Source: a virus
DNA length: 64,000 nucleotides
IMG/VR virus record: IMGVR_UViG_3300008108_000067
Span: 1 to 64,000 of that record
Direction: 5' to 3' (one strand)
This document shows positions 16,124-57,374 of this stretch, in pieces (position 1 is the first letter of the stretch; each line of letters opens with the position of its first letter). The position numbers and the translations under genes were made by a program. The notes below the pieces were generated by a model. It was given only the letters and a program-made list of their open reading frames with translations. It did no database searches and was not told the origin of the DNA.

Positions 16124-17692
16124 TTAGATTGTTGCCAATCCGTCGATGAAGATTTTGCCGAAGAATTCTGGACGTACGATCTTCTTCGCGTAGCGGGTCA
16201 TTACGCCGCGACGTGGTGTGAAGTTGTTTGGATCGTAGACCAATGGGGTCATGATGAGTGGGATATATGGTGCGTAGACTGCACCAGTTTCGAGGAAGTT
16301 ACTTCCACGGAAGCCCATCAACAATGTGTTTTCGGTCATGTATGGGTTCTTGTAGATTGTGTAACGGTTTTGGAATGAACCAACCTTGGTTACGCCACCT
16401 GCAAATTCCATCTTGTCACCGTCTGTTGCTGCCATAAAACCAGGGATGGTTTCGATGATTGTTGCAACTGTTGGTGAAACCACTGCGAAGTTAGCACCGC
16501 CACGCATTGTGAGTTGGTGGATACGGTTACTGACTTTTTGCATCTTCTGACCAAGTGTTTGGTACCAGGTCATGTTTGTCCAAGCTTGACCACTGAGTGT
16601 TGCACTTGGTACGAATGCTGTACCATTCCATACCTTACCGACTTCTGCGTGCCAGTATTCGGTTGTTGTTGCGTTGTTGATTAACATGTCAAGGATTTCG
16701 AGGTCGATTTCTGTTGAGATGTAATCACTTAACATTGCTGTTAATTCTGCTTCTGCGTCAACACTGTGGTATGCGTTCAAGTCTTGTGCAAGTTCTGGTG
16801 ACCAGACTGCCTTCAACTTACGTGTCTTAGCAACGATTGTTTCTGAACGAAGTTCCAAATCAATTTGTGGAATGTTCAAGTTTGTTACTGAGTTGTCACG
16901 ATCTTCGAAGTCACCACGAGTTGTTTCAGTTGGTTGCTTACTGTATTCAACTGCTGTGATTGTTGCTGCAGCTGCTGCTGAACCACTTACGATGAAGGTT
17001 ACGTTTGTACCATCATACTTGGTGAATTCTGGGAGTAAGTCACCTGTTACGGTGTCTGTAATGCGGAATGAACGAACTGCGTTGAAATCTGCATTTGAGA
17101 AACTTACTGCTGGAACAACGAACTTGAAGAATGATGCAAATGATGAAGAATATGCATCGTTATAGTTTACATCACCGTATGAAGTTACAGATGATGATGC
17201 GATTGCTGGAGCAAGTGTTAATGTTGCATCATTTACTGAGTATGCATATTCACCAGCACCGTAGAAACCACCGCGTGGAAGAACACCTGAACCACTGGTT
17301 GTTCCATATACTGAACCACCTGCTGTCTTACCGTTGATTGTGTTTGCGTACTTGAAGTCCATGAAGAATACCAAACCTGCTGGTAAGTTCATTGGTTGGA
17401 CTGATACGAAGTTCTTCGATGCGATTGAACCGAATACCTTACGTACTAATGGAAGTGCGACACCTGCCCAGTTTTCACCAGCTGTGCCCGAACCACCTGG
17501 GTTTGTGGTTGTTGCTTCTGAAAGAAGTTGTGTTGCTTGGTTTTCCAACATTACTGCCATGCCTTGCTTTTCGTGGCCAGTTAAGCCTTCGAGAAGGCCT
17601 GACTTTTCCCACTTGCCTGCCAATTGGCGGGTCTTTTCAACTACCACGCGGTGTGCTGAACCGGCTTCGTTGATAAATTCTGATACTGACAT
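16124..17692 (-). CDS. 23: Major capsid protein (gp23-like)
   Basis: 522 residues, almost the exact length of T4 gp23 (521). The N-terminal helical propeptide (KWEKSGLLEGLTGHEKQGMA then VMLENQATQLLSE) ends at L57-S58-E59, which fits the (L/I)xE rule for gp21 cleavage, so the mature shell protein probably starts at Ala60. VQPMNLPAGLVFFMDFKYA, TIIETIPGFMAATDG and the C-terminal RYAKKIVRPEFFGKIFIDGL are gp23 signatures. AGGAG precedes the ATG. It follows the scaffold gene by 19 nt and ends at a strong terminator. Its codon and base use is visibly more GC-rich than its neighbours, as expected for a highly expressed gene. Confidence 0.97.
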   Translation of the reverse strand: MSVSEFINEAGSAHRVVVEKTRQLAGKWEKSGLLEGLTGHEKQGMAVMLENQATQLLSEATTTNPGGSGTAGENWAGVALPLVRKVFGSIASKNFVSVQPMNLPAGLVFFMDFKYANTINGKTAGGSVYGTTSGSGVLPRGGFYGAGEYAYSVNDATLTLAPAIASSSVTSYGDVNYNDAYSSSFASFFKFVVPAVSFSNADFNAVRSFRITDTVTGDLLPEFTKYDGTNVTFIVSGSAAAAATITAVEYSKQPTETTRGDFEDRDNSVTNLNIPQIDLELRSETIVAKTRKLKAVWSPELAQDLNAYHSVDAEAELTAMLSDYISTEIDLEILDMLINNATTTEYWHAEVGKVWNGTAFVPSATLSGQAWTNMTWYQTLGQKMQKVSNRIHQLTMRGGANFAVVSPTVATIIETIPGFMAATDGDKMEFAGGVTKVGSFQNRYTIYKNPYMTENTLLMGFRGSNFLETGAVYAPYIPLIMTPLVYDPNNFTPRRGVMTRYAKKIVRPEFFGKIFIDGLATI

Positions 17693-17711: not shown

Positions 17712-18905
17712 TTATAGAATGCCTGCGAGTTGTTGTAGACGTTTTGCTACTGTGTTTTCTTCTAAAATTTCTTTCTTTGGCGCGGTACTTGGGGTTGCCT
17801 TACTTGCTAACCCTTCCGTAACCACCTTACTTGATACGGTGCGACCCTTATTCATAGTCTTAGCTGCTACTGACATTGCTTCGACCAATGTTGTGTATAC
17901 CATCTTAACTTCACGAACATTTACTGCACGATCAAATGATTCTAAGATTGTAACTTTTTGTTCGTTGGTCAAACCTTCCTTACGGAAGATTCTGTTGGTA
18001 TATAAGAGTTTTGCGTTTAGAAGATTTACTTCTTGTAGCTTGCCTCGTAGGACATTTACAACCTTACGATATTCTGCGAGCTCATTGTGAAGCGCTGCCA
18101 TTTCAGCTGCCATTTTTTCAGATGATTCTTTTTCTTTTTCATCTTCGGCTTCTAATTCACGGAGAATTGCTTCAATATCAAGTTCTTCTTCGCCTTCACC
18201 TTCTTCGTGACCCTTTTCCATATCCATTCCCATTTCCATTCTTGGTTCGGCTGGATTTACTGCTCTCTTGTGTGGATCAGATGCATCTGTTGCTGCTTCT
18301 GTTTTTCCAATATCTGATGAGTGTGCTGGAATAGTCTTGTCATGAACGTCTGCTGGTGATGCTGCTGGGAGTTTTTCTCCACCTTCTTCACCATCTGCCC
18401 AACTTTCATCCATTTCTTCCTCTTCCTCTTCTTCACCTTCATGCTTAGCTTCGTCGAGTTCTTCTTCTTTTTCCTCTTCTTCAGCTTCTGAAAGTGCCTT
18501 CACATCTGCTTCTAATTCCTTAATTACTTCGTCAAGGTCAAAGTCTGATTCTGACCAGTCATCGTACCAATCAGTACTACTATCAGCTTCTCCCTCACCT
18601 CCTTGATCAATTCCTGATGAATCCCAGGATGCTGCTGAAGGTTCTTTGTTGTCACCTGTGCCGATACCAGATGTATCTTCTGGACCGCCACCTGTTACGT
18701 GAGTTGCGTCTTGGAATGGTTCTTCCTTCGCCTTCTCTTCGGTTTCCATTGTTGCTTCAGCGCGAAGGCGCTTTGCTAACATGGACTTAATTTGGGGTGT
18801 GAATGTTTCTTCCAATGCAATCTTTGCATTTGCGATAGCTGTTTGACGTACAGCTTCTGCATCTGCAATTGCTTGCTTTAGAAGTTCGTTTGTGATTTCT
18901 GCCAT
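17712..18905 (-). CDS. 22: Prohead core scaffold protein (gp22-like)
   Basis: 397 residues from ATG 18905, which has GAGAGG 6 nt upstream; the TTG at 18929 overlaps that site and is rejected. The N-terminus (LLKQAIADAEAVRQTAIANA then KIALEETFTPQIKSMLAKRL) and the C-terminus (LLNAKLLYTNRIFRKEGLTN then VTILESFDRAVNVREVKMVY) match gp22-type scaffolds. Between them lies a long acidic region (about 60-250) with Glu-rich runs, expected of a core that is degraded by gp21 and expelled. T4 gp22 has 269 residues, so the acidic part is expanded. It lies directly upstream of the capsid gene, in the T4 order. Confidence 0.88.
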   Translation of the reverse strand: MAEITNELLKQAIADAEAVRQTAIANAKIALEETFTPQIKSMLAKRLRAEATMETEEKAKEEPFQDATHVTGGGPEDTSGIGTGDNKEPSAASWDSSGIDQGGEGEADSSTDWYDDWSESDFDLDEVIKELEADVKALSEAEEEEKEEELDEAKHEGEEEEEEEMDESWADGEEGGEKLPAASPADVHDKTIPAHSSDIGKTEAATDASDPHKRAVNPAEPRMEMGMDMEKGHEEGEGEEELDIEAILRELEAEDEKEKESSEKMAAEMAALHNELAEYRKVVNVLRGKLQEVNLLNAKLLYTNRIFRKEGLTNEQKVTILESFDRAVNVREVKMVYTTLVEAMSVAAKTMNKGRTVSSKVVTEGLASKATPSTAPKKEILEENTVAKRLQQLAGIL

Positions 18906-19004
18906 ATAATGCCTCTCAGTTTGTTTCAATAGTTATTCGAACTATTATACGGTTATTAATACAAATAGCTACACACCCCAAGAGAGGTGTAATCTATATA
19001 ATAT

Positions 19005-19032
19005 ATAGTGTTATATTATCAAAAAACACTAT
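19005..19032 (-). other. Hairpin downstream of the bS21 gene
   Basis: ATAGTGTT and AACACTAT form an 8-bp stem with a 12-nt loop, a few bases after the bS21 stop. The U-tract lies on the plus-strand side, so it would terminate plus-strand transcription better; on the coding strand it may be a weak terminator or an RNA-stability hairpin. Confidence 0.45.
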
Positions 19033-19035
19033 TTT

Positions 19036-19254
19036 TTACCACTCGGAAGTTTTTCTTTTTTCCTGTTTCTTTTCTTCACGTATCTTACGACGAAGTGCTT
19101 CTTGTTGTTTTAGAATTTTTTTCTTTGACTTTTTAACATAAAATTCGCGGCGTTTTACTTCATTTACAATTTCCGCTTTTTTAACCATTTTTGAGAACTG
19201 TCGTAACGCTCTATCTAAGTCACCCAGTCCTTCTCCTTTTACTTCAACGTGCAT
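19036..19254 (-). CDS. rpsU: Phage-encoded ribosomal protein bS21-like
   Basis: 72 residues, strongly basic. The core GLGDLDRALRQFSKMVKKAE then VNEVKRREFYVKKSKKK follows the bS21 pattern: an N-terminal strand, an LxRALRxFxxxxxKAxIxxE helix, KRRExYxKxSxK, and a helical Lys/Arg tail. Bacterial bS21 sits on the small ribosomal subunit near the anti-Shine-Dalgarno sequence and helps mRNA binding. Phage copies have been described and are thought to bias initiation to phage messages. The extended tail (QQEALRRKIREEKKQEKRK) is longer than in most bacterial forms. A near-perfect AAGGAGG precedes the ATG by 4 nt. It sits between head genes and is therefore likely expressed late. Confidence 0.85.
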   Translation of the reverse strand: MHVEVKGEGLGDLDRALRQFSKMVKKAEIVNEVKRREFYVKKSKKKILKQQEALRRKIREEKKQEKRKTSEW

Positions 19255-19626: not shown

Positions 19627-20310
19627 TTATTTCATATTCTTAGCTACATAATTTATTGCTACTTTTCGTACGTTTGAATCTTGCGAATATCCCAATGCAC
19701 TCTTGACCAAAATATCTCTGCCGGTTTGTGGATTCTTAATACGATGTTTTAATAAATCTTTTAGTCGTATTTGTTTCGTTGGTGTCTCACCAGTTTTCTT
19801 GGTATCCTTTTCTTGAGCTTGCTGTACTACCAATTTTGTTTGCGGATACTTTGTAAGTAGTGTTTTAACTGCCTTTACATTTTTGGGAGCATCATCTACG
19901 AATACAATTCTGTCAAATCCATCATTGATATGTTTTTCAATGTACCGTGCTTTTGCCATTGGATCAGAGTTACCCAAAGCAGCAATAGTAATACCAGAAG
20001 TAATTCCTTGTAATTTAAGAAATTTTGCAATAGGTTTGGTGTGACCACGAGCTGTGAGTACAACTATTTTATCAGCTTTCTTTTGGTCAACGACTTTCTT
20101 TAATAAGTCTGTATATTTTTTGATAGGACGAGGATTTTTTAATTGTTCAAACTCCGAAAAATCAAATGTATCACCATCTTGCTTTTCATATGCAGCGTAT
20201 TCCGCTGGTGATATTGTTCTTCGTTTACCGTCCTTATCAATGACAATAACCCTAGCGTCAGTATGCACTAGGGTATCATCAAAGTCCGTAATATATGCCG
20301 TTTTTCCCAC
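19627..20310 (-). CDS. HAD-superfamily phosphatase with a C-terminal tag module
   Basis: 227 residues starting at a GTG (20310) with no clear ribosome site, 4 nt after the previous stop. HAD motifs: motif I DFDDTL (nucleophile Asp9, Asp11), motif II TAR (about 86-88), motif IV VDDAPKN (Asp139, Asp140). These fold types remove phosphate from nucleotides, sugars or nucleic-acid ends; the cap region (about 25-70) is acidic. Residues 181-226 (KDLLKHRIKNPQTGRDILVK then SALGY) are a separate module that also ends the 950-residue fusion at 31830. That shared end suggests a common destination or partner, perhaps the capsid. Substrate is unknown; a 5' or 3' nucleic-acid phosphatase is plausible but unproven. 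Confidence 0.75.
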   Translation of the reverse strand: MGKTAYITDFDDTLVHTDARVIVIDKDGKRRTISPAEYAAYEKQDGDTFDFSEFEQLKNPRPIKKYTDLLKKVVDQKKADKIVVLTARGHTKPIAKFLKLQGITSGITIAALGNSDPMAKARYIEKHINDGFDRIVFVDDAPKNVKAVKTLLTKYPQTKLVVQQAQEKDTKKTGETPTKQIRLKDLLKHRIKNPQTGRDILVKSALGYSQDSNVRKVAINYVAKNMK

Positions 20311-20314
20311 GATA

Positions 20315-20797
20315 TTATCGGGTAACTAATTTATATGCAGTAGCCACCATCTTTTCTAATGGAAGTGCCAACATTTTCTTACGATTTTCTGGTGCCAACT
20401 TATGTAAAACTTTTGTAAGTAATGCGGCAGTGTATACGTCAACTAACGTACCATCTATCTCTGCTGGGTGTTTATCCTTGACAATACTCAAAATCTTACT
20501 TTGTTTTTCACTATAATTTTCATCAGTAGTGACCAGATGTGGATCATTTGATACTGTTGGTGTAGTATCGTTGGATGCCACTGGAAAGTCAGATACAGGA
20601 ACTGCTCCTGCTACTTCATCCTTTTTCTTTGGTAATTTGGAAATTGGAGTTGATGCGTATTTTTTCACATCACTCTTAGACATTGTTTGTGCCAACTTTT
20701 GTGCAGTTGGACTAAAATCCGTTGCTTTTGCTCTTCCGGTTTGGATAGCATGAACGATACCAAATAATTTTTGTTGTGCTTTACTGACTGATGGCAT
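20315..20797 (-). CDS. DUF3008-like head-region protein
   Basis: 160 residues from ATG 20797 with GGAG 9 nt upstream and one base after the previous stop; the longer reading back to 20881 lies inside the protease gene and is rejected. The N-terminus MPSVSKAQQKLFGIVHAIQT resembles the DUF3008 pattern (MPxxSKAQQRLM), a short basic helical unit common in phages. A Pro/Thr/Asp-rich linker (about 70-100) leads to a helical C-terminal half (YTAALLTKVLHKLAPENRKK). Function unknown. It lies in the cluster of candidate internal proteins. Confidence 0.6.
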   Translation of the reverse strand: MPSVSKAQQKLFGIVHAIQTGRAKATDFSPTAQKLAQTMSKSDVKKYASTPISKLPKKKDEVAGAVPVSDFPVASNDTTPTVSNDPHLVTTDENYSEKQSKILSIVKDKHPAEIDGTLVDVYTAALLTKVLHKLAPENRKKMLALPLEKMVATAYKLVTR

Positions 20798-20798
20798 C

Positions 20799-21179
20799 CT
20801 ATTTCTCCGAATACATTTCAGGATACAAATATCTAAATTTACGTAGTAATGTACCTGCCATTGCGTTGGCTTCATTTTCAATTTCAGAACCGTCTGTACC
20901 GTCTAGTTCTTTTTGTTCTTCACGTTGTTTGTGATGAACCAATTCATGCGCAAGTGTTCGTAATGTGTCAACCATGTGTCTACCATTTTTGACAATTACA
21001 ATTTCATCATTATCTGGTTGGTATGTACCAAATGTAAGATGTTGTTTGGAATAATCACTACCTACCATTTTAATTTTGGCAGGTAGTGATTTGAGTTGTA
21101 ATTCCTTTGCTGTAAACTTTACAAACTCATTTACTATATTTTTGTTGTAAACTTCGTTTAGTAAAGTTTTTAATTGCAT
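20799..21179 (-). CDS. Zinc metalloprotease-like protein (HExxH)
   Basis: 126 residues. HELVH at 78-82 with ENEANAMAG around 101-109 (Glu103 as likely third zinc ligand) is the minigluzincin pattern. The core domain, including the strand EIVIVKNGRH before the active-site helix, is small and complete. The first nine residues MQLKTLLNE match the short N-terminal peptides of nearby genes and end in L-N-E, a gp21-type cleavage site, so the protein may be packaged in the head and delivered to the cell. The target could be a host protein or a head component. It starts 6 nt after the previous stop, with only a weak AGG upstream. Confidence 0.7.
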   Translation of the reverse strand: MQLKTLLNEVYNKNIVNEFVKFTAKELQLKSLPAKIKMVGSDYSKQHLTFGTYQPDNDEIVIVKNGRHMVDTLRTLAHELVHHKQREEQKELDGTDGSEIENEANAMAGTLLRKFRYLYPEMYSEK

Positions 21180-21185
21180 AAATTA

Positions 21186-21449
21186 TTACTTACCTTTTTT
21201 CTTGGTAGTAATTTTTGCTGCCTTCTTAACCACTTTCTTTCCTGTTTGTTCAACAGCCTTAACTGCTGCGACAACATCCTTGATGTCAACCTTTCCATCG
21301 TTATTGACATCTGCGATATCTTTTGCAGCAGTTTCAACTTTCTTAGCTGCAACAAATAGTGGTTTCTTTTCCATCTCTGTCATATTTTTGTGGTTAATCC
21401 ACCATGCGATAACCACAAGAACAACGACAACACTTAAAAATAGTAACAT
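21186..21449 (-). CDS. Membrane-anchored protein with a dockerin/EF-hand loop
   Basis: 87 residues. An N-terminal hydrophobic segment (LLFLSVVVVLVVIAWWI) acts as a membrane anchor or signal anchor. Then comes one Ca-binding-type loop, DVNNDGKVDIKD (about 46-57), followed by a helix and a Lys-rich tail (KKAAKITTKKKGK). The loop resembles dockerin or EF-hand units and is also found in two nearby proteins. AAGGAG precedes the ATG. Function unknown; membrane targeting plus a basic tail could link membrane and DNA or capsid. Confidence 0.6.
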   Translation of the reverse strand: MLLFLSVVVVLVVIAWWINHKNMTEMEKKPLFVAAKKVETAAKDIADVNNDGKVDIKDVVAAVKAVEQTGKKVVKKAAKITTKKKGK

Positions 21450-21468
21450 ATAAACTCCTTATGAAGAA

Positions 21469-22056
21469 TTATTTTAACTCACCTAGGAAATCGTAGATGA
21501 GAGTATCAATACGAGAATAAGGTGTAATGATTTGAGTTCCCTTATTTTCGTTGATGAACGCACCATGTGTAGATGGGTTACTTACGATGTCAAAACAAAT
21601 AAGAGAAAAATCTTCACCAACTTCTACGGTGTTTTCTCCAATAGGTTTGACTGAACCCAATCCACGCGATGATACACCCAAACGAATATTATTCTTAATT
21701 AATTCACGAACAATATTACCGGACGGAGTAGATAAAATTTCAATATTACCCTTCACATCCGCGCCTTCGAACCAAAGGTCTGTGACGTTACAACAAACAT
21801 TTTTTAGATTTACAACTGGGCTTTCTGGGTGGTCTAATTCACCCAGAGCTCGTCGTTGTGTAACGAAATTATTTTTATATACCATTGCTTCACGTGCCAA
21901 AATATCCTTTGGATAAATTCGACCATTTTGATTTTTATGATCTGCACGTTGTAGTACCACATCTTTCAAAACCAATGGTTTTGAAATGTCGGAAGCTTCG
22001 GTTAATAATTTACTGTCATAAGAAATGACGTTATATTCTACTAGTAGTGATTGCAT
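21469..22056 (-). CDS. 21: Prohead core protease (gp21-like, Peptidase S80)
   Basis: 195 residues from ATG 22056, preceded by AGAGGA at 7 nt and one base after the previous stop; the TTG at 22098 is rejected. Signatures are NQNGRIYPKDILAREAM, LGELDHPESP with catalytic His76, and GVSSRGLGS with the catalytic Ser at 129-130. T4 gp21 has 212 residues. It sits in the scaffold, digests gp22 and trims gp23 and internal proteins after (L/I)xE, and finally cuts itself. Its own N-terminus SLLVE contains such a site (L5-V6-E7), like the self-cleavage site of T4 gp21, and LTE20 is a second one. Confidence 0.95.
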   Translation of the reverse strand: MQSLLVEYNVISYDSKLLTEASDISKPLVLKDVVLQRADHKNQNGRIYPKDILAREAMVYKNNFVTQRRALGELDHPESPVVNLKNVCCNVTDLWFEGADVKGNIEILSTPSGNIVRELIKNNIRLGVSSRGLGSVKPIGENTVEVGEDFSLICFDIVSNPSTHGAFINENKGTQIITPYSRIDTLIYDFLGELK

Positions 22057-22057
22057 C

Positions 22058-22552
22058 TTATTGTCCTCTAATTTCACGAATTCGAGTAGCGATACCAAGG
22101 AGTTTTGCTTCCAACTTTAATAATCCTTGTTGGGTACGTTTCCACAGTTGTTCACTTGTAATTCCCGATTCGTTTTTTAAACGAGCGTTCATTCTAATAA
22201 CTCGTTCAACTTCATTTAAATTTTTATTTAACTGAGATATTGCGTCAGCAATTTTCTTGTGTGGTGACTTTGTATCATCATTTCTATATTGATAATATTT
22301 GTTCTCTGCTAATTCGCGTGTCACCACTTCCATCTTATCTGCTGGACGGTTTGCATCTTTTTCACCCTTGGGTGTGAGTTTATATCCAGTTTGATTTGCT
22401 AGATGCTTTGCTCTATCTACATTTGTCTTTTTATTACCACGAAATGCCATAGGAGTTAGATAACCAGCAACCATGCCAGTTGTTGACATTTCATCCAATT
22501 CTTTCTTAATCAGTTCACGGATAGTTTGACGAAGCGCTTCTTTTTTGTCCAT
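22058..22552 (-). CDS. Helical head-region protein of unknown function
   Basis: 164 residues, mostly helical and basic. The N-terminus (KKEALRQTIRELIKKELDEM) is followed by STTGMVAGYLTPMAFRGNKK, a Gly/Thr-rich strip like that seen in other phage head-region proteins, and a C-terminal helix pair (ISQLNKNLNEVERVIRMNAR). GAAGAG lies 6 nt before the ATG, overlapping the previous stop region. Being directly upstream of the protease and downstream of the portal suggests a prohead core component. I do not know its T4 counterpart; positionally, gp67/68 lie here in T4. Confidence 0.55.
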   Translation of the reverse strand: MDKKEALRQTIRELIKKELDEMSTTGMVAGYLTPMAFRGNKKTNVDRAKHLANQTGYKLTPKGEKDANRPADKMEVVTRELAENKYYQYRNDDTKSPHKKIADAISQLNKNLNEVERVIRMNARLKNESGITSEQLWKRTQQGLLKLEAKLLGIATRIREIRGQ

Positions 22553-22554
22553 AA

Positions 22555-23433
22555 TTAACTCTTCAAATTGTCTAACGTTTTGGTAATTTCCAAAGCGATA
22601 AGTAACGCTGTCATATGATTTTCTTTAATGACTTGTGTAGTCTTAATTTTTTCCAGCTGACTAACTACTTCTGACAACTTAATTTTTACAATTTTGTCTT
22701 GTACGTAATTAAGTTTAGACTTGATTTCCGTTATTAATACGTTACATTCACTAACTGCACACTTACGAAGTGTTGCACTGTTAGACACATTATTAATGTA
22801 TTCACGAAGAAGATTTTTCTGACGGTCATTCAATCCTTGATATTTTTCGTTGAATTTTTCCATCAAAATTTTGTATGACAACAGACGTAAATCTTCTTCT
22901 TGTCCCTTGACGGTTTCGAATAACGCTGTGTCGTTTTTAATTTCTTTGTTGGTAATCGTACCACTTAAATGTTCTACTATGGTAAACTTTGCTTCTACCA
23001 TTCCTTCGATTTCATTGAAATCTTTAAGTTCGTTGATAACCCCATCAAAAACTTTATACACGGATGCGTAAACTTTGTATGACGGAACACGGGCACCCAA
23101 AAATTCTTTTAAGTCATAATTATTTTTTATTTCTTTAATTAACTTATATTTTTGAGTGTTAAGTGCTATCTCATTAAGTTTCTTACGTTGATTAATAATA
23201 AGATTTAATAATTCGAATGCCTTTGCTTCACTTAAATGCGAAGCATTGAAAAATGATCTATACAGAATTAATTCTTTACCTAGTTCTGTTTTAGAGTTGA
23301 AGTACTCCTTCATTAGCTTAACTGCAACATCGCTGTTACGGTTCTCTAATGCATCGGAGGTGATTTTACGGACTAATAATTCAAAGAGAATGCCCGTATT
23401 CCGTATTTTATTGTGCTTGACGTTAGATTTCAT
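22555..23433 (-). CDS. Conserved all-helical head-region protein
   Basis: 292 residues from ATG 23433; ATG 23439 is two codons upstream and directly abuts the GGG that could serve as ribosome site, so the inner start is preferred weakly. Almost entirely helical: NKIRNTGILFELLVRKITSD, KLMKEYFNSKTELGKELILY, LIKEIKNNYDLKEFLGARVP. This arrangement resembles conserved proteins found next to portal genes in marine T4-like phages, with no known function. Possible roles are portal assembly or scaffold initiation. A lone TATAAATA on the coding strand lies 50 nt upstream (23484-23491). Confidence 0.6.
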   Translation of the reverse strand: MKSNVKHNKIRNTGILFELLVRKITSDALENRNSDVAVKLMKEYFNSKTELGKELILYRSFFNASHLSEAKAFELLNLIINQRKKLNEIALNTQKYKLIKEIKNNYDLKEFLGARVPSYKVYASVYKVFDGVINELKDFNEIEGMVEAKFTIVEHLSGTITNKEIKNDTALFETVKGQEEDLRLLSYKILMEKFNEKYQGLNDRQKNLLREYINNVSNSATLRKCAVSECNVLITEIKSKLNYVQDKIVKIKLSEVVSQLEKIKTTQVIKENHMTALLIALEITKTLDNLKS

Positions 23434-23496
23434 ACACATCCCGTTTTGGTGACATTATACCGTCATATATTAAATATAACGAATATTTATAAGACT

Positions 23497-25380
23497 TTAA
23501 TTTTCTAGGTCCAAAATGTTACTTTCGTCCAACAATGTTTGTGAAGATAAGGTAGATTCCATAATAATTTTTTTAGAATTTGCCTTATTCAAGAATGCTT
23601 GTACTTCCAAAGATAGTGGTGATTTACGTTTGTCGTTTCTCTGCTTACCCACTTTAAAAACTTTTTTATTTTCTTTGTGTCCTAGTGGATCACGACCTCG
23701 TGGGTGACTATCTTGACCAAATTTCATTCCTTCTCGTGGACGACCCATCTTAGCTTCTTCTAATTCTTCCTCTGGAATTTCCAGTTCACTTTCTTCACTT
23801 GGTTCTTCAAGAGAGGATAAAATGGTATTAACATCATCTATTTGTTGATCTTGTTCCGGAGCTGCCTGACTGTCTGGTTCTCCTGCGGGAAGTTCCTCTG
23901 GTGGTGCTTCCGTTGGCTGACCTGCCTGTTGCTCAATTCCAGTCAACTCCGACATACGTTTGACATCTTCTATAATCTTTTTACGTTCCGTAATAATTTC
24001 ATCTTCTGATAATTCTAGGATGTTGTGGTAAACCCAATCTTGGGATAACATCTTAGATTCCATAATTTGTGTAGCAACACCTACCTTTTCCTTCCACAAA
24101 TTTAATTTTTCTTGTTCGTAGATGACCGATGGATTGGTTAATGATAGTTCAAAATCAACTAAATCTTCATCTGTAAATCCTTGAACGTATAGATGGATAA
24201 TCGCAATCTTAGTTAATTCCGATACCATGATTCTCTGGATACGTTCGATTGTACGAGCAAATCGTACATCTTGCGCAGCCAACGTAGCTTTTCCACTAAT
24301 ATCTTCATCATATCCTATAAATGATTTGGGGACTTTAAATGCTGCCAAAAGTTTTCTACGGAGATATTCAATATCTTCAATTGCATTGAATTGTAACCCA
24401 GGAAGATTCTGAATGTCAGTACCACTATCTTTTCCACGGGTTGGTAAGAAGAAATCTTCTGTGATATTTTGCATATTATATCGAAGATTATAATCACCCG
24501 TTTGTGGATCAACTAATGGTGTCTTTTTCATACGGTCAATAATACGACTCATAAACGTATCAATTTCGGCAGGTGGTATATTACCAATATCTACTAAAAT
24601 CTTACGTTTATCTGGTGCTCTCATAATACGATGAATTAACATCGCATCTTCCATCAATTGAAGTTGCTTCCACACACGACGACCACCTTCAATCATACTT
24701 TTTCCATATGGAAGGAAGTTGGTGTCTGCTAATAATCGGAAGTGGGCAATTTCGTAATTATCAAATTCTGTTTTACCCAGTGCCAAGAAATCGTTTTCAA
24801 TCTTGAATTTTACAGAGAATGGATTGCCTGGGTCTTGTCCTTCAATACGGATGGTTTCATATACAGATAACGGCAATACGTTGACAACACCATATTCCGG
24901 GTCAATGTCGAGATATAAGAAGAAATCTCCATACTTACACATATTTCTGACCCACGGCCAGAGATTAAATTCTACGTTGAGAATGTCGTAAAATAAATTG
25001 TGAAGAATTTCTTGTATTTGAGTGTTTTTTGAATGGATACTGATTATTTGATTGAATTCGTCTTTAACAGTACTTTCGTCTGCATAGATATCCATAACCG
25101 ATGCGATAATAGGGTCATTATCCATCATGTCGTAGTCACGGAATAATTGTAACCGTGAACCTTGGAACGCCGCGGCTGCTTCATATCGTCCGTGGGCAGA
25201 ACCATATCCACCCGTCATTGACGAATAGACGCGATGGTATCTATCAATACCGCGTCTATTGATAAATGCTTGAATATTATCGGTGTCTGCGATTCTTAAC
25301 TTTTTTCCACCAACATTACGAACTATCGTGTTAGAAGAAAAAAGTTTCTTTAATCTGCCAAATATGCCGTTGTCAGCCAT
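23497..25380 (-). CDS. 20: Portal protein (gp20-like)
   Basis: 627 residues (T4 gp20 has 524; the excess is a charged C-terminal tail). Portal features are AFQGSRLQLFRDYDMMDNDP then IIASVMDIYADEST, MCKYGDFFLYLDIDPEYGVV, PYGKSMIEGGRRVWKQLQLM, LVDIGNIPPAEIDTFM and FKVPKSFIGYDEDISGKATL. It forms the dodecameric ring at one vertex, nucleates the prohead and binds terminase. The tail after about residue 490 is rich in Pro, Glu and Gln and then basic (RPREGMKFGQDSHPRGRDPL). It is followed by the helical gene at 22555 and preceded by a small gene at 25394. Confidence 0.95.
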   Translation of the reverse strand: MADNGIFGRLKKLFSSNTIVRNVGGKKLRIADTDNIQAFINRRGIDRYHRVYSSMTGGYGSAHGRYEAAAAFQGSRLQLFRDYDMMDNDPIIASVMDIYADESTVKDEFNQIISIHSKNTQIQEILHNLFYDILNVEFNLWPWVRNMCKYGDFFLYLDIDPEYGVVNVLPLSVYETIRIEGQDPGNPFSVKFKIENDFLALGKTEFDNYEIAHFRLLADTNFLPYGKSMIEGGRRVWKQLQLMEDAMLIHRIMRAPDKRKILVDIGNIPPAEIDTFMSRIIDRMKKTPLVDPQTGDYNLRYNMQNITEDFFLPTRGKDSGTDIQNLPGLQFNAIEDIEYLRRKLLAAFKVPKSFIGYDEDISGKATLAAQDVRFARTIERIQRIMVSELTKIAIIHLYVQGFTDEDLVDFELSLTNPSVIYEQEKLNLWKEKVGVATQIMESKMLSQDWVYHNILELSEDEIITERKKIIEDVKRMSELTGIEQQAGQPTEAPPEELPAGEPDSQAAPEQDQQIDDVNTILSSLEEPSEESELEIPEEELEEAKMGRPREGMKFGQDSHPRGRDPLGHKENKKVFKVGKQRNDKRKSPLSLEVQAFLNKANSKKIIMESTLSSQTLLDESNILDLEN

Positions 25381-25393
25381 AACCCCTCAACTG

Positions 25394-25744
25394 TTAGTAG
25401 ATATATAATTCGTCTAATGCAATAACCGTTAGACGAACTGCTTCCGTATCTAATCCCGTAGTTGGTTTTTGCAATAGACTGTTTAATTTTTCGTGTAATG
25501 CACGTGCTGGTATTACTACATCTACGAGTTCTTTCATATGCCATGCGGACATTGTATTATAATTGTATGGCATTTCATTGACCGCAGTAATACCTTCCAT
25601 TAACTTTGCTACCAATTCGGTAATTTCATTCTGCTGCGACTCTTTTAAAGAGGGCATTAATTTTTCAAGTAGGGCAACTAATCGTGTAGAATTAATACGA
25701 TTTTCCTTACCTGCTTCTGTTACTAAGTGTGTTAACTTAATCAT
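25394..25744 (-). CDS. Small helical protein with a targeting-like N-terminus
   Basis: 116 residues. MIKLTHLVTE at the start matches the short N-terminal peptides of other genes in this cluster and ends with V-T-E before Ala, a possible gp21-type site. The rest is helical (STRLVALLEKLMPSLKES, ELVDVVIPARALHEKLNSLL). No family recognised. GGAG lies 7 nt before the ATG and the start overlaps the previous gene by 8 nt. Probably a head internal or assembly protein. Confidence 0.55.
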   Translation of the reverse strand: MIKLTHLVTEAGKENRINSTRLVALLEKLMPSLKESQQNEITELVAKLMEGITAVNEMPYNYNTMSAWHMKELVDVVIPARALHEKLNSLLQKPTTGLDTEAVRLTVIALDELYIY

Positions 25745-26102
25745 GCTTCTTCTCCTTATCTAATGCTCTTCGCATTTTCTTAACATCTTTTGGTTTCGGT
25801 GCGCCTCGAATGACACCACCAGGTCCAACTAATCCCATTGCGGGTGCCGCTGCCGCTGGTGCTGCTCCTGCCATTTGTTCCGAAACCTTTTTCTCTACGT
25901 TCTTTAATAATAGAGAATAATACTTTGGATTTTCTTTCAAATGTGCTGCTGCAATTTTTGCAGTCTTAACCACGTTTCCGTGGGTCACATCTTGATGTTC
26001 CAATTCAGTATTCATTCCCAAAAAGAATTCTGTTGGGTTAAACTTATAACCCATTTTATCTAACATCTTGTCGGATTGTTTCCGTGAAATTTTCTTTTTC
26101 AT
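25737..26102 (-). CDS. DUF5661-like protein
   Basis: 121 residues. The centre reads NPTEFFLGMNTELEHQDVTH then VVKTAKIAAAHLKENPKYYS, which matches what I remember of DUF5661: a short helical unit with ExELEH and KIAxxHLxExPxYY, widespread in phages and of unknown function. After it come an Ala/Pro-rich linker (EQMAGAAPAAAAPAMG) and a basic end (KPKDVKKMRRALDKEKKHD). The His/Glu pairs (ELEH, AHLKE) could bind metal. It overlaps the next gene slightly and lacks a strong ribosome site. Confidence 0.6.
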   Translation of the reverse strand: MKKKISRKQSDKMLDKMGYKFNPTEFFLGMNTELEHQDVTHGNVVKTAKIAAAHLKENPKYYSLLLKNVEKKVSEQMAGAAPAAAAPAMGLVGPGGVIRGAPKPKDVKKMRRALDKEKKHD

Positions 26103-26105
26103 ATG

Positions 26106-26660
26106 TTACCAAGTACGACATGCCCAGTAACGAGCTTTCGTTCTTGGACCTGGGTTATCACAGTTGTGTCTAGCACGGAATGCTTTACGGCGAGAAGGAA
26201 TGTTCTTTTTAATTTTCATTGTCTTTTCACCACGGCGTTTTGCCGAAGTTCCACCGTGACCAAAGCTAACTTTCTTAATATTTCCACTCTTTGGGTCACG
26301 AACATATACCTTGAACTTCTTGACATCCCCTCTCATAATCTTACCAAGAGGAACTTTACGTCCTTGGTATTCTGCTTCACCAAGTTGATTTTCGTGTAGT
26401 CCTTCAAGAACTTCTATTAAACACTCATTACAGAACTCGCCTTCATGTAATTCATCAACTGCTTCCGAACCAAATTGGTTACGTTCGTGGTCTTGGTCTG
26501 GTTTGAAGTCACTATCCGAAGTAACATCACTTTCTGGACGATGATATAATTCTTTAACTGGAACACAGTTTGGAACCATTTTACCGTTTAGTTCCTTCAT
26601 TCCAACTTGCTTATATCCGTCCCAGCAGGATTCACATAGAATATCAGTCAATCTAATCAT
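26106..26660 (-). CDS. Basic Cys/Trp-rich candidate internal head protein
   Basis: 184 residues from ATG 26660 (GAGAG 5 nt upstream); the TTG 18 nt further up is rejected. The N-terminus MIRLTDILCE is a targeting-like peptide ending L-C-E. It is followed by CWDGYKQVGMKELNGKMVP-NCVP, a short unit I recall from other T4-like phage proteins. The C-terminus is basic and ends RRKAFRARHNCDNPGPRTKA-RYWACRTW, with Cys/His residues that could hold zinc; KFKVYVRDPKSGNIKKVSFG precedes it. This end also recurs in phage head-region proteins. Function unknown; DNA binding in the head is plausible because of its charge. Confidence 0.6.
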   Translation of the reverse strand: MIRLTDILCESCWDGYKQVGMKELNGKMVPNCVPVKELYHRPESDVTSDSDFKPDQDHERNQFGSEAVDELHEGEFCNECLIEVLEGLHENQLGEAEYQGRKVPLGKIMRGDVKKFKVYVRDPKSGNIKKVSFGHGGTSAKRRGEKTMKIKKNIPSRRKAFRARHNCDNPGPRTKARYWACRTW

Positions 26661-26683
26661 AGTTGCTCTCAATGTCAAGAGTT

Positions 26684-27010
26684 TTATTTCTTTTTAAAAG
26701 TAGAAACCATAGTTGGTTTTCCACCTGGATTTCCTGCTTTTCTCTTTCTTGTTACAGCTGAACGTTTTTCACCTTTACTCATTGCTGCTGCGGAACGAGC
26801 AGGTCTACATTTTGGATATTTAGCCGACCCACCTTTACGCTCTTTTTTACCAGCGGAAGCACCACACGGTGGATGCTTTCCAGTTTTCGGGTCTTTTCTG
26901 GAAATATCCACCCATTTTTGCTTCAACCACTTACCCAATTCACCTTTTGGTTTATACTTCTCATCCAAAATATCTTCGGTAAGTTCAACTAAAATATCTT
27001 GTAATTTCAT
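26684..27010 (-). CDS. DUF5872-like basic protein with targeting-like N-terminus
   Basis: 108 residues. MKLQDILVE at the start ends L-V-E, a gp21-type site. The rest, GKWLKQKWVDISRKDPKTGK, PPCGASAGKKERKGGSAKYP, KCRPARSAA and RSAVTRKRKAGNPGGKPTMV, matches the DUF5872 pattern (W-V-x-x-S-R, PCGR, PKCRPA, KRxAGNPGGKP) as I remember it. It is highly basic, with two Cys pairs suggesting a small zinc site. Its start shares one base with the previous stop (TAATG). Likely a nucleic-acid-binding internal protein; function not established. Confidence 0.65.
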   Translation of the reverse strand: MKLQDILVELTEDILDEKYKPKGELGKWLKQKWVDISRKDPKTGKHPPCGASAGKKERKGGSAKYPKCRPARSAAAMSKGEKRSAVTRKRKAGNPGGKPTMVSTFKKK

Positions 27011-27372
27011 TACTTTAAGAACTTCAACTTATAAATTGTGGAATTCACCAATCCAGAAATTTCATCTACGATATTATTGAGGTCACCATCTTGTGGCAAT
27101 CCCTTGCGAACACTATCAATATAGGTTGATAATCCAGTAAAATACTTTACTATTTCATCACCTTCGAAGTATTGCTTTTGTGGAGTATATCCACGAATAA
27201 TACCATAACGACCTTGGCAGGTTTCTGCGTACTTATCTACCAAATCTACGATATCATCATAGTATTCATTCAATGCCTTGTGAGCGGCATATGATGAAGT
27301 TTGTAAGTGGAAGATGTGTGCTTGGTCACGACTATTGAATAGTGTGGACAAAAACTTTGCTACGGTTCCCAT
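27010..27372 (-). CDS. DUF5856-like, Dps/ferritin-like helical protein
   Basis: 120 residues, all helical. RDQAHIFHLQTSSYAAHKAL then NEYYDDIVDLVDKYAETCQG resembles DUF5856 and, more distantly, the first two helices of Dps or ferritin-like proteins (H-x(2)-T-x-SYAxHxAL and a D/E-rich second helix). If the fold is right, the His and Glu/Asp residues could bind iron or oxidise it; no ferroxidase activity can be claimed. GGAG precedes the ATG, which overlaps the previous stop by one base. It sits in the candidate internal-protein cluster. Confidence 0.55.
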   Translation of the reverse strand: MGTVAKFLSTLFNSRDQAHIFHLQTSSYAAHKALNEYYDDIVDLVDKYAETCQGRYGIIRGYTPQKQYFEGDEIVKYFTGLSTYIDSVRKGLPQDGDLNNIVDEISGLVNSTIYKLKFLK

Positions 27373-28019
27373 TACATTGCTCCAGCGTCAGAGGCTGGTT
27401 GCTCCTTTTGTCCGTATTCGTGATAACTTGTATTTGCTTGGTCCAAGTTATTTTCTGCCACTGCGATATGGTCTTGAATCCATGCTGGAATGTCCTTTTC
27501 GTCCATTCCAAGCTTACCCTTTAATTCGGTTGCGTGACGGATGATGGAGTCAAGAGTTTTAGTTGCCATTGAAACTTCGTGATCTTCACCTTCAGCACCT
27601 TCCTTCTTCATTGCCTTGCCGATTGCGTCACGACGAGCTTGTAAATACTTGTCGGAAGAGTCTTTATCTCCATCGTTATCAATGTCACCATCTTCTTTAC
27701 CAACTGGATCCATTGCTTCCAGTTGTGCGATTAATTCATCAAGTTTTGCAGATTGTTCTTCGGAGAGTTCAGTTTCTTCCTTGAGCTTCTTCAAGGTCAT
27801 AGCTAAACGAGCACGTTGGCCTAGCTTACCACCCTTTTCGGCAGCAGCCTTTAACTTACCGGCTGGGATTGGTTCATCTGCCGATACACCAAGTTGTTTC
27901 TTTAATGCACCTGGTTTCTTGATTGCTTGTTGAATCCACTTTTCTTCTTCGTTCATCGAACCAACTGGTTTGTTACCAATTGCTTTAATACCAGGTACTA
28001 ATCCCATTAATTTAATCAT
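27372..28019 (-). CDS. Modular head-region protein with Ca-loop and helical modules
   Basis: 215 residues made of short phage modules. After MIKLMGLVPGIK comes WIQQAIKKPGALKKQLGVSA with GKLGQRARLAMTLKKL (about 28-80), a basic helical unit common in phages. A Ca-loop-like unit follows, DIDNDGDKDSSDKYLQARRD (about 112-131), inside a module shared with the gene at 28036. A C-terminal helical unit reads LDSIIRHATELKGKLGMDEK then AWIQDHIAVAENNL. GGAG precedes the ATG. None of these modules has a known function; the composition suggests a structural or DNA-binding internal protein rather than an enzyme. Confidence 0.6.
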   Translation of the reverse strand: MIKLMGLVPGIKAIGNKPVGSMNEEEKWIQQAIKKPGALKKQLGVSADEPIPAGKLKAAAEKGGKLGQRARLAMTLKKLKEETELSEEQSAKLDELIAQLEAMDPVGKEDGDIDNDGDKDSSDKYLQARRDAIGKAMKKEGAEGEDHEVSMATKTLDSIIRHATELKGKLGMDEKDIPAWIQDHIAVAENNLDQANTSYHEYGQKEQPASDAGAM

Positions 28020-28035
28020 CGTGCTTCTCCAAATG

Positions 28036-28518
28036 TTATAGGGAGGTTTGTCCCTTCTTTTTTGCTATTAAATACCGCTTATATAAATCTCTTTTTGCTT
28101 TCATCAACTTATCTGTTAAATCTACCTTTCCATCATTGTTGATGTCTGCGTCCTCTTGACCCATTGGATCACGACGAACGTGTGGATAATGTACTTCTTT
28201 CTTACCACTTCTCCATCCACCACCCATACTCTTGTACTTTTTTGCTGCCCATAAGTTAGCGTATGCTGATGGATAGACTTTAAACTTACGTTTTGCAGCT
28301 GCCTTGGCTGCAGCCCACTTTGATGGATTGGTTGGAATTGACTTTTCTAATAATGCGGAAAGTTCTTCCATTTTTTGTAGTCGTGGGTCTGCAAAGTCAC
28401 TTTCAGTTTCTTTATATCCACCCCACGGATAACCTTCATCTTGTTTGCAATCACAACCTTCGGTTTGCAAACAACCACAATCCTCAAAGATATATGAATA
28501 GTAATCCTTGTAATTCAT
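28036..28518 (-). CDS. Head-region protein with Ca-loop module
   Basis: 160 residues from ATG 28518 (MNYKDYYSYIFEDC), two bases after the previous stop, with GAAGG upstream; the extension to 28593 lies inside the preceding gene and is rejected. The N-terminus is Cys-rich and acidic (EDCGCLQTEGCDCKQDEG). A middle basic unit reads KWAAAKAAAKRKFKVYPSAY then NLWAAKKYKSMGGGW. The C-terminus DPMGQEDADINNDGKVDLTD then KLMKAKRD is the same Ca-loop module as in the gene at 27372. Function unknown. Confidence 0.6.
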   Translation of the reverse strand: MNYKDYYSYIFEDCGCLQTEGCDCKQDEGYPWGGYKETESDFADPRLQKMEELSALLEKSIPTNPSKWAAAKAAAKRKFKVYPSAYANLWAAKKYKSMGGGWRSGKKEVHYPHVRRDPMGQEDADINNDGKVDLTDKLMKAKRDLYKRYLIAKKKGQTSL

Positions 28519-28520
28519 TG

Positions 28521-28817
28521 TTATTTTGCCTTCTTTTTCTTTTTGGAATCTATTGCTCTGTTGGTAGCTGTTGCATATAGGTATGACTTCCAATCGTCAC
28601 CAAATTTATCTTTGAAATAACGAACCGAACGTTTGTTTTTTAGTAATTTCTTACCAATCTTATCACGACCTTGAACTTGTCCCTTGGTCATCTTTCGTGG
28701 TGGTTCACGACTTGCAACCGTACGTTCGTCGAGTTCCTCTTCTTCTGGCTTTTGCATTTCTTGAAGAACTGCTGCCAATTCTTCACGGATGATTTCTAAA
28801 ATTTCATCTTTGGTCAT
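28521..28817 (-). CDS. Small basic head-region protein
   Basis: 98 residues. An acidic helix at the start (KDEILEIIREELAAVLQEMQ) is followed by MTKGQVQGRDKIGKKLLKNK then SVRYFKDKFGDDWKSYLYAT, and a Lys run at the end. The second half resembles a unit seen in other phage head-region proteins. Function unknown; charge and place suggest a nucleic-acid-binding or core protein. No strong ribosome site; the start is 3 nt after the previous stop, so coupling is likely. Confidence 0.55.
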   Translation of the reverse strand: MTKDEILEIIREELAAVLQEMQKPEEEELDERTVASREPPRKMTKGQVQGRDKIGKKLLKNKRSVRYFKDKFGDDWKSYLYATATNRAIDSKKKKKAK

Positions 28818-28820
28818 ATC

Positions 28821-28979
28821 TTATACCGGTTTAGATTTGGTTACACCACCACGTTTGCGTTTTTTACGTCCTGCGCAATGTGCTTTTTGACTGAAACCTT
28901 TGGGGTTACTACAATTTATGGACTTTTTATACTTCTTTGTCCATTTTTCAGTTAGTAAAATATCAACTAGTTTAATCAT
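28821..28979 (-). CDS. 52-residue basic Cys protein, first gene of the head operon
   Basis: This short gene encodes MIKLVDILLTEKWTKKYKKS followed by INCSNPKGFSQKAHCAGRKK and a Lys/Arg-rich end. The N-terminus is the targeting-like peptide ending L-T-E. The CSNPKGFSQKAHCAGR unit is one I recall from many phage proteins and may form a small zinc or disulfide knot. ATG 28979 lies just after the terminase terminator and a promoter-like element, so it leads the portal-protease operon. It has only a weak ribosome site (GGATTTAACT). Confidence 0.7.
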   Translation of the reverse strand: MIKLVDILLTEKWTKKYKKSINCSNPKGFSQKAHCAGRKKRKRGGVTKSKPV

Positions 28980-29018: not shown

Positions 29019-30605
29019 TTATCCTAGTAACCACGATATATTTTCCTTCTTACCACCAATTTCCATTTCATATGGATTGTGTGTAACATGCTTATTTGTG
29101 TACACCATACCTTCTACACTATACCTTGTCTTGTCCAATGTTAACTTCGTCAGTTCTATACCCTCCTGGCGCAACCTGAGGGCGGTGTCCCGTACCCATA
29201 GACCTATACACAATGCCATCGTCAAGTCATCGTTATAACCAGATAATGCTTCTGGTCTACCGTTCTTCCAAATAAAAGTATCTAATTCGGCGCACATACG
29301 AGATGACCGAATAGTAAAACTATTTTCTAACATATATTCTTTTAATCGTGCGATAACCAACGGACGAGTTCTTTGCGAGGTGGTGAACCCAGGTACCATA
29401 TTTCGTTCTTCACGATAATACTTTCCGGTCATTTGATGCTCGACATCCACATATTGTAAATCTTTGGACATATAAAAGAGATTTTTATATCCTCGGTCTA
29501 TAACTTGTTGTATTGCGTTCCATCCTATACTACTATTTTCTGGGATGAGTAGTGCATCATTGTATTCTGTTGCGATGGACACCAACATATTACCAAACTG
29601 TTTGGTTTCTACCTTTCCTTTATATTCTGCCACTTGGGTTGACGTTTCTACATCAATCACATGAAATGCGGAATAGTCCTCACCATCTCCACGAGATACG
29701 TCAGCCGAAACAATATAGGATTTCCCGGATTGTGGGTACTCCCATATCCATAAGTTTCCATCAAACCCACCCTTACTAATAGGTTCTTTCACAAACGTGG
29801 ATTTGTAGAATTCAATAATTTCTGGTGGGACAACTGTATTACCTGAGAATATAAACGAGGCATCATGTTCTTGTGCTGCCTGCATTTCACCAAGAATTTC
29901 TGTTTGACGGTCACGCCATGCCTGGTCACGTTCTGGATGTACTTGCCAATCCAACAAGATTGGATTAAATTCGTTTGCTTGACTTTCTGCTTGTTGCCAC
30001 ATCTTGTGGAAGAAGTTACCCACACCGTTTGGAGTGGAAATAAGAATAGCTTTTCCACCCGTGGATAACGTACTTGATGCTGCCGTCCAGATAATGTCGG
30101 CGTTATCAATAAATGCACACTCGTCAAGAATCAATAGAGACAATGCTTCGGAACGTCCAGCGTCTTTACTACTTGCCACAGCTTTAATCTGTGACCCGTT
30201 GGTAAATTGTAATGACAGTTTATTATCTGTTAATATTTCACCACGTAACCACACAGGAAGGTTTTGATGCATAAAACGAACTTTGGTTACTAAGTTTTTT
30301 GCAGTTTCTTGCTTGGTTGCGATAACAAGAATATTCTTGTCTTTGTGAAACAACATCAACCACAACGCATACCCCGCAACTAATGTAGAGAAACCTAACT
30401 GACGCCCTTTAAGTACAATGTTATATCGGTTTTCTTCAAACTCTCCCATCGCCTTTGCTTGGTATGGATATAAGTCAAACAACACCCGACCACGAATCGG
30501 GTGTTGAATATACGAATATTTAGATAAAAAGTACTCAGGCTGGAGTGCGCACTTTTTATATTCTTCTTTAATACGTTCACGTAACTGTTGTGCTGTTGTA
30601 TTCAT
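29019..30605 (-). CDS. 17: Terminase large subunit (gp17-like)
   Basis: 528 residues (T4 gp17 has 610). The N-terminal ATPase has Walker A KGRQLGFST (66-74), Walker B LLILDE (157-162, Asp161 and Glu162) and the coupling motif STPNG (190-194). The C-terminal RNase H-like nuclease starts at SADVSRGDGEDYSAF with Asp302 as first metal ligand. It packages DNA into the prohead and cuts the concatemer. AGAGG precedes the ATG by 4 nt. No obvious small terminase subunit (gp16) was found next to it. In T4, gene 17 sits beside 18; here it is upstream of the portal cluster. Confidence 0.95.
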   Translation of the reverse strand: MNTTAQQLRERIKEEYKKCALQPEYFLSKYSYIQHPIRGRVLFDLYPYQAKAMGEFEENRYNIVLKGRQLGFSTLVAGYALWLMLFHKDKNILVIATKQETAKNLVTKVRFMHQNLPVWLRGEILTDNKLSLQFTNGSQIKAVASSKDAGRSEALSLLILDECAFIDNADIIWTAASSTLSTGGKAILISTPNGVGNFFHKMWQQAESQANEFNPILLDWQVHPERDQAWRDRQTEILGEMQAAQEHDASFIFSGNTVVPPEIIEFYKSTFVKEPISKGGFDGNLWIWEYPQSGKSYIVSADVSRGDGEDYSAFHVIDVETSTQVAEYKGKVETKQFGNMLVSIATEYNDALLIPENSSIGWNAIQQVIDRGYKNLFYMSKDLQYVDVEHQMTGKYYREERNMVPGFTTSQRTRPLVIARLKEYMLENSFTIRSSRMCAELDTFIWKNGRPEALSGYNDDLTMALCIGLWVRDTALRLRQEGIELTKLTLDKTRYSVEGMVYTNKHVTHNPYEMEIGGKKENISWLLG

Positions 30606-57026: not shown

Positions 57027-57374
57027 TTACTTACTCAATCCCAACTTTTTCATTACGGCGCTGTAATCTTTCGTGATAGCTTCTACAGCCGGTTTGAACG
57101 CTGGATCATTTAAATTAACACCTTGTGGGATATTTTCTGGAAGTACCACATTATTTGTGGTTGCCATAATGGTATCTCCGTGGCGTTCCAATCCCATCAT
57201 CGCAGCCAACTTTGAACGGTCAAGTTTTGGCTTACTGGACGCCGATGCAGTTTCGTTAACTTGTTGTATACCTTTAATTTGGGCTACAGCTTCTCCCAAA
57301 AGGTTGGGAAGAATTCTATTAACTTCTTCTTCGACAACGGTTCTGATGTATGCTTTTAGTAATGTTTTGTCCAT
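57027..57374 (-). CDS. Small helical protein beside the wedge genes
   Basis: 115 residues. An N-terminal helix (KAYIRTVVEEEVNRILPNLL) is followed by a Ser/Lys linker, KLDRSKLAAMMGLERHGDTI and a helical end. It resembles conserved small proteins located near gp25 in large phages. Function unknown; a baseplate assembly factor is a guess. AAGGAG lies 6 nt before the ATG. Confidence 0.55.
   Translation of the reverse strand: MDKTLLKAYIRTVVEEEVNRILPNLLGEAVAQIKGIQQVNETASASSKPKLDRSKLAAMMGLERHGDTIMATTNNVVLPENIPQGVNLNDPAFKPAVEAITKDYSAVMKKLGLSK

Follow-up and report, generated by a model that had tools for sequence, protein, structure and literature searches.

The window analysed here comprises positions 1 to 64,000 of the IMG/VR record IMGVR_UViG_3300008108_000067, which is 90,889 bases long and represents a T4-like phage. 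Several unrelated proteins of this phage begin with one short peptide, which is very probably a capsid targeting sequence of the T4 type. The region of head and structural genes lies on the minus strand and is arranged, in gene direction, as gp17, a block of small genes, gp20, gp21, gp22 and gp23. The large terminase gp17 (29019..30605), the portal protein gp20 (23497..25380), the scaffold gp22 (17712..18905) and the major capsid protein gp23 (16124..17692), all on the minus strand, were assigned by sequence and synteny, and the prohead protease gp21 (21469..22056, minus strand) by its match to Peptidase_S77 in Pfam (E 2.8e-26) and to phrog_207 (5e-49). The protease, the scaffold core and the shell protein expected alongside a T4-type targeting sequence are all encoded by this phage. 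The C-terminus of gp22, VAKRLQQLAGIL, is near-invariant in 29 related proteins, and the predicted mature site of gp23 is QLLSE/A. The protease is also encoded in the best 80 related contigs, with 72-100% identity. Its top matches in cultured phages, Flavobacterium phage immuto and Microcystis phage Mel-JY01, are 51-57% identical, and no near DNA match to the window was found among cultured phages.

As the initial annotation had proposed, five genes of this region, all on the minus strand, start alike and continue into bodies that are unrelated by Pfam and PHROG. The peptides are MIKLTHLVTE (25715..25744) of gene 25394-25744, a helical protein of 116 residues; MIRLTDILCE (26631..26660) of gene 26106-26660, a basic protein with six Cys residues, the start of which is the ATG at 26660 and not the TTG at 26678; MKLQDILVE (26984..27010) of gene 26684-27010, a basic member of phrog_23735 with an isoelectric point (pI) of about 10; MIKLVDILLTE (28947..28979) of gene 28821-28979, a protein of 52 residues with a mature pI of 11; and MQLKTLLNE (21153..21179) of gene 20799-21179, a metalloprotease with the motif HELVHH. 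We assign the tag with the greatest confidence to the first three, with moderate confidence to 28821-28979 and with the least to the metalloprotease. The pattern M-x-(K/R)-L given in the initial annotation fits three of the five, while two peptides have the Leu one residue earlier and that of 28821-28979 is longer by one residue ahead of the Glu; the shared core is better written as L-x-x-(I/L)-(L/V)-x(1-2)-E. The proposed (L/I/V)-x-E ending holds throughout, as LNE, LCE, LVE and LTE, and in 25394-25744 as VTE, which is ITE, LVE or LLE in relatives.

A sixth and informative case, absent from the initial annotation, is gp23 itself, which starts with MSVSEFINE (17666..17692, minus strand; then AG) in the same spacing; relatives retain this start as MSGVSEFINEAG, MSDVMNLISEAG and similar peptides. 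A possible further tagged protein is encoded at 28036..28518 (minus strand) and starts with MNYKDYYSYIFE, spaced as Y6-x-x-Y9-I10-x-E12; this tag is kept in some relatives only. The earlier label of DUF5872-like was abandoned, since the similarity of 28036-28518 is weak (16.9 bits against a Pfam gathering cut-off of 27.5) and 26684-27010 has no Pfam hit. The start MQSLLVE of the protease, also listed earlier with the tags, is present (start at 22056), and we rejected it as a tag of its own because it is the normal gp21 N-terminus, the counterpart of LIE-9 in T4 gp21 (MNEPQLLIE).

The pattern ^M.{1,4}[LIVMFY]..[LIVMF][LIV].E, that is hydrophobic-x-x-hydrophobic-hydrophobic-x-E, was found in 6 of 23 head-block genes of the record and in 1 of 83 genes elsewhere (Fisher p = 3.5e-4). 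A profile of the peptide in related genomes, which the initial annotation had suggested as a check, gave the same enrichment in five relatives (head block versus elsewhere: 4/21 v 0/138, 4/21 v 0/80, 4/18 v 1/79, 4/25 v 0/27 and 4/21 v 0/60), which do not amount to five independent tests because the genomes share families. Similarity of N-termini without a chosen motif gave a weaker signal (p 0.006 to 0.12), and some few of the matches in the head block, MTKDEILEIIRE for example, belong to another type of helix and probably fit by chance. Gene starts were taken from a simple script. As a positive control, the pattern was applied to the called genes of T4 and selected 8 of 233, including the gp21 substrates IPII, IPIII and gp24; IPI and Alt were missed because their starts differ (MKTFKEFTSTTTPVSTITE and MELITE), and the pattern is therefore neither complete nor fully specific. 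A late-promoter-like TATTTAT/TATAAAT element upstream of the tagged genes was considered as a common feature and rejected as not specific (29/119 versus 189/992 other genes, p = 0.1).

Within families, the peptide is conserved as a pattern. Homologues that are 22-67% identical to the window's 25394-25744 protein align with four invariant columns, E10 among them, and with almost no variation at L4; immediately after E10 comes a linker rich in indels. In the AlphaFold model of this protein, the predicted local distance difference test score stays under 50 at almost every one of residues 1-13 and is about 90 in the helical body; a fold search of the PDB with this model gave no significant match (best E 0.41). 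Close relatives of 26684-27010 are 82-99% identical overall and vary in the first 14 residues, where MKLQDILVE, MILLTDLLDE, MISLTDILEE, MTRLSDLLVE and MIRFADLLVE all keep the pattern, and L-x-E still closes the peptide when the spacing is shifted (MISLTELLED, MILLKDIILDE). Such retention of the pattern while residues change has the look of selection on the pattern. A distant relative of this protein is also tagged (L354), relatives of 28821-28979 start with MIKLMDLIPE, and further families at the same place in relatives start with MIKLMDILLEE, MVNLTSLLLSE and MIKLTDLLKE.

The tag is also portable and separable from the body that follows. Relatives of 26106-26660 carry MIRLTDILCE followed by xCWDGYKQVG, and another clade has the same body behind MENITE and ACWEGYKQVG. 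Orthologues of the metalloprotease start with MQLKTLLNE, with MKLMDLLCE or without a tag. The HAD phosphatase of the window (19627-20310) is untagged and has a relative in contig L314 that starts with MIKLKDLLLE (43% identity, E 5e-45), and a nucleotidase is tagged in L425 (MIKLLDILKE) and untagged in L426 at 55% identity. One clade of untagged metalloproteases (L050, L052, L055, L061) is extended at the C-terminus by a segment apparently related to the C-terminal portion of the adjacent gene (20315-20797 in the window).

A DNA-pattern scan of IMG/VR for sequences encoding MIKLxDLLxE, hereafter class A, gave at least 120 stretches, versus 23 for a codon-reversed control. Among the matches listed, which come from aquatic viruses, the 124 proteins of at least 60 residues fall into at least 60 body families without mutual BLAST similarity, the only measure used for counting families. 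Again among the matches listed, gp21 is encoded in 15 of 23 tagged contigs of at least 40 kilobases (kb), compared with 1 of 10 in the control set (p = 0.004, by a Fisher test that, like the others here, ignores kinship among contigs); one further tagged contig encodes gp23. Two tagged records hold several tagged genes together, in L425 a few kb upstream of gp17, as in the window. Pfam relatives among the tagged proteins, mostly one member each and several of them weak, include zeta toxin, ART-PolyVal (2e-10), phage lysozyme (1.5e-10), alpha/beta hydrolase, acetyltransferase and metallopeptidase, and PHROG matches include a 5'-3' deoxyribonucleotidase and phrog_23735, the family of 26684-27010. 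Such enzymes would make sense as cargo delivered to the cell, like T4 Alt.

The strict class A pattern was found in one gene of Flavobacterium phage immuto (gene 24569) and in none of the cultured phages T4, KVP40, S-PM2, P-SSM2, Syn9, HTVC008M, Melnitz-1, S-CREM2, Mel-JY01 and C48C1, and a literature search for the peptides MIKLKDLL, MIKLTDLL and MIKLIDLL found no paper in the library searched. Four other genes of immuto (1803, 103806, 117631 and 118632; L115-L118) share a third type of start, approximately NF(D/N)L(K/R)(K/S)FL(V/T)EN(K/R)LT with the spacing L-x-x-F-L-x-E. Related starts are FDLKKFLVENKLT, and a similar one occurs at L425:3964-4626.

A second signal, class B, is the peptide (R)MQ(K/M)LAGIITE at the N-terminus of unrelated proteins, e.g. 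MTQEQLRMQMLAGIITE followed by GQYK (viral contigs L119-L238). This peptide is closely similar to the C-terminus of the scaffold gp22 (...RLQQLAGIL), which in other aquatic T4-like phages ends in RFQKLAGII, RWQMLAGINKF, RMQKIAGLRK and the like; in contigs G014, G020 and G022, a Trp (RWQ) is present in both the gp22 tail and the N-terminal peptide. The scan gave at least 120 stretches versus 3 for the codon-reversed control. Among the matches listed, 124 of 137 are N-terminal and represent at least 66 body families; in 86 of 108, Gly or Ser follows the Glu. The protease gp21 is encoded in 12 of 25 class B contigs, a few of which are probably chance matches to the peptide. In the six checked genomes of the window clade, the class B pattern occurs nowhere except in the tail of gp22 itself; immuto has one class B gene (111675), and a literature search for LAGIITE found no paper in the library searched. 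In the simplest reading, class B proteins would gain access to the core by imitating the tail of the scaffold and be cut by gp21.

The first 10 residues of IPIII are sufficient for targeting in T4, where positions 4 and 7 serve in targeting and positions 8 and 10 in processing, and gp21 cleaves after (L/I)-x-E (PMC9026906). The capsid targeting sequence of IPI-IPIII and Alt is credited to Mullaney and Black (1996), as cited in PMC9026906 and PMC5694885. The peptides of the window are likewise short, N-terminal and borne by unrelated bodies, match the T4 register (L4, I/L7, L/V8 and E10, or shifted by one) and, with VTE in 25394-25744, end in the site of gp21. The likeness to the T4 internal proteins drawn in the initial annotation is borne out by IPII and IPIII (both MKTYQEFIAE) and also by gp24 (MAKINELLRE), and its reading as a capsid targeting sequence gains from the register, the ending, the head-gene context, the T4 control, the portability and the collection scan. 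We therefore regard this reading as very likely. The analysis establishes the peptide, its register, conservation and portability, and its link to the head block and to viruses with gp21, whereas helix formation, docking, cleavage, packaging and injection are inferred. The peptide would form an amphipathic helix with hydrophobic residues at 4, 7 and 8, by which the protein docks to the core of scaffold during prohead assembly; gp21 would then cut after the Glu at 9-11 in (L/I/V)-x-E, the peptide would leave, and the mature protein would be retained in the head alongside the DNA and very probably enter the cell at infection, a last step suggested by the cargo types.

Four observations weigh against this interpretation. 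Seven tagged contigs of at least 40 kb, one of them of 207 kb, show neither gp21 nor gp23; they may be fragments, and phrog_207 gave no match in contigs without gp21, a search in which the control gave no match either. The residues that follow the Glu in the window (V, A, S, L and K) are less uniform than a strict site would give. The metalloprotease, proposed earlier as a tagged protein, does carry MQLKTLLNE and is the weakest of the five, its peptide being modelled as the start of a longer helix in place of the flexible tag of 25394-25744. Finally, some orthologues are without a tag, and their function therefore cannot need it everywhere.

The strongest alternative, which we consider possible and clearly less probable, is that targeting to the core and trimming do take place, and that the proteins act inside the head in DNA condensation or core building, as gp67/gp68, instead of being injected as effectors. 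Small size combined with strong basicity (mature pI 9.3, 10.4 and 11.0) marks three of the five, and several have small modules with Cys pairs that are common in aquatic phages. However, the other two are not basic, and elsewhere the tag is found on relatives of ADP-ribosyltransferase, zeta-toxin-like kinase, nucleotidase, lysozyme and hydrolase, which would be sensible mainly in the cell.

A protein-protein docking helix directed elsewhere (to the tail, a membrane or a replication complex), with the Glu there by chance, is an unlikely account of the shared start: it could account for the variable residue after the Glu in class A, but not readily for a Glu that is invariant in the diverse 25394 family, for an (L/I)-x-E ending kept even when the tag length shifts by one, or for the clustering of tagged genes with head genes. 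Duplication or recombination of DNA at gene starts, which adjacent genes and a few collection matches with repeated upstream DNA (L333) might suggest, is very improbable and largely refuted, because different families encode the same residues with different synonymous codons and, in the window, the DNA upstream of the genes is not alike; a DNA repeat or a shared leader was rejected on these grounds. Remote homology through a common N-terminal domain has next to no likelihood, with no point found in its favour, no similarity of bodies by BLAST, Pfam or PHROG, and a mean column identity of 7% in an alignment of 63 tagged proteins.

Proteins delivered with the DNA of uncultured phages are scarcely known because their bodies are unrelated and fast-changing. 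If the peptide is a capsid targeting sequence, it can serve in practice to mark proteins that may be injected into bacteria by such phages, and a cleavable address readable in sequence alone makes the question of cargo searchable. The search already yields dozens of candidate effectors in aquatic phages, with relatives of ADP-ribosyltransferase, kinase, lysozyme, peptidase, hydrolase and acetyltransferase and many unknowns, and the scaffold-like class B suggests how cargo may be captured.

Further recurrent features were observed in the tagged genes of the window and their neighbours. Genes 28821-28979, 26106-26660 and 26684-27010 contain small basic modules with a Cys pair (CSNPKGFSQKAHC; CWDGYKQVG..VPNC; HNCDNPGPRTKARYWAC; PPCG..YPKC), several of which recur in aquatic phage proteins of unknown function. 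Gene 27372-28019 has a tag-like start without the Glu, MIKLMGLVPG, and its relatives start with MIRLSGLVNLKALKEE and have an L-K-E site a few residues on, perhaps a longer tag like that of T4 IPI. Another recurrent N-terminus, approximately M(T/D)KxxLxxxIRExIxKELxE, is found in the unrelated genes 28521-28817, 22058-22552 and 57027-57374, near head and tail genes, and also in immuto and other contigs. The HAD phosphatase 19627-20310 and the cytidyltransferase-like protein 31830-34682 have a common C-terminal motif, K-NP-T-RDI-V--AL-Y.

Comparison with known systems places the peptide closest to T4. Like the T4 capsid targeting sequence, it occupies about 10 N-terminal residues of unrelated bodies, with hydrophobic residues at 4, 7 and 8, Glu 10 and (L/I)-x-E, and gp21 is encoded in the same phage. 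In contrast to T4, the flavour here is MIKLxDLLxE and not MKTYQEFIAE, many tagged genes lie inside the gp17-gp23 block, and cleavage and packaging are predicted from sequence. The nearest peptide in residues is the propeptide of T4 gp24, which agrees in length and in its hydrophobic positions (compare MIKLTDLLKE of L054), although gp24 is a shell protein and not internal cargo; T4 gp22 starts with MLKEQLIAE. Since class A resembles the starts of gp23 and gp24, and the T4 tag YQEFIAE resembles the scissile segment FGSFLTE of gp23, these likenesses suggest the hypothesis that class A imitates propeptides of shell proteins. Aquatic T4-like phages would have two N-terminal addressing codes for head cargo, class A following the gp23/gp24 pattern and class B, which may be the more novel, combining mimicry of the gp22 tail with a gp21-type site and then Gly or Ser, together marking more than 100 unrelated families of candidate injected proteins; we judge this proposal to be evenly balanced. 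In T4 itself, gene 61.1 (T4 18966-19130; L427:267-431), a hypothetical protein of 54 residues, starts with MKTFKEFIKE. The rest of the protein can be aligned to gp23 across the cleavage junction and the mature N-arm (score 69, maximum 43 in 500 shuffles), making it a candidate for an unrecognised head protein or gp23 mimic.

Two other systems share part of this design. Propeptides of the ejection proteins of the giant phages phiKZ and SPN3US are also N-terminal and cut by a gp21 relative after a short motif ending in Glu, whereas they are mostly longer than 100 residues and the motif is A-x-E (PMC5694885, PMC7411985). The polyvalent proteins of phages and conjugative elements have given their name to the domains ART-PolyVal and MPTase-PolyVal, which match two tagged cargo proteins; polyvalent proteins, however, fuse 2 to 15 domains per polypeptide (PMC5512222), whereas the proteins described here are small and carry a short tag.

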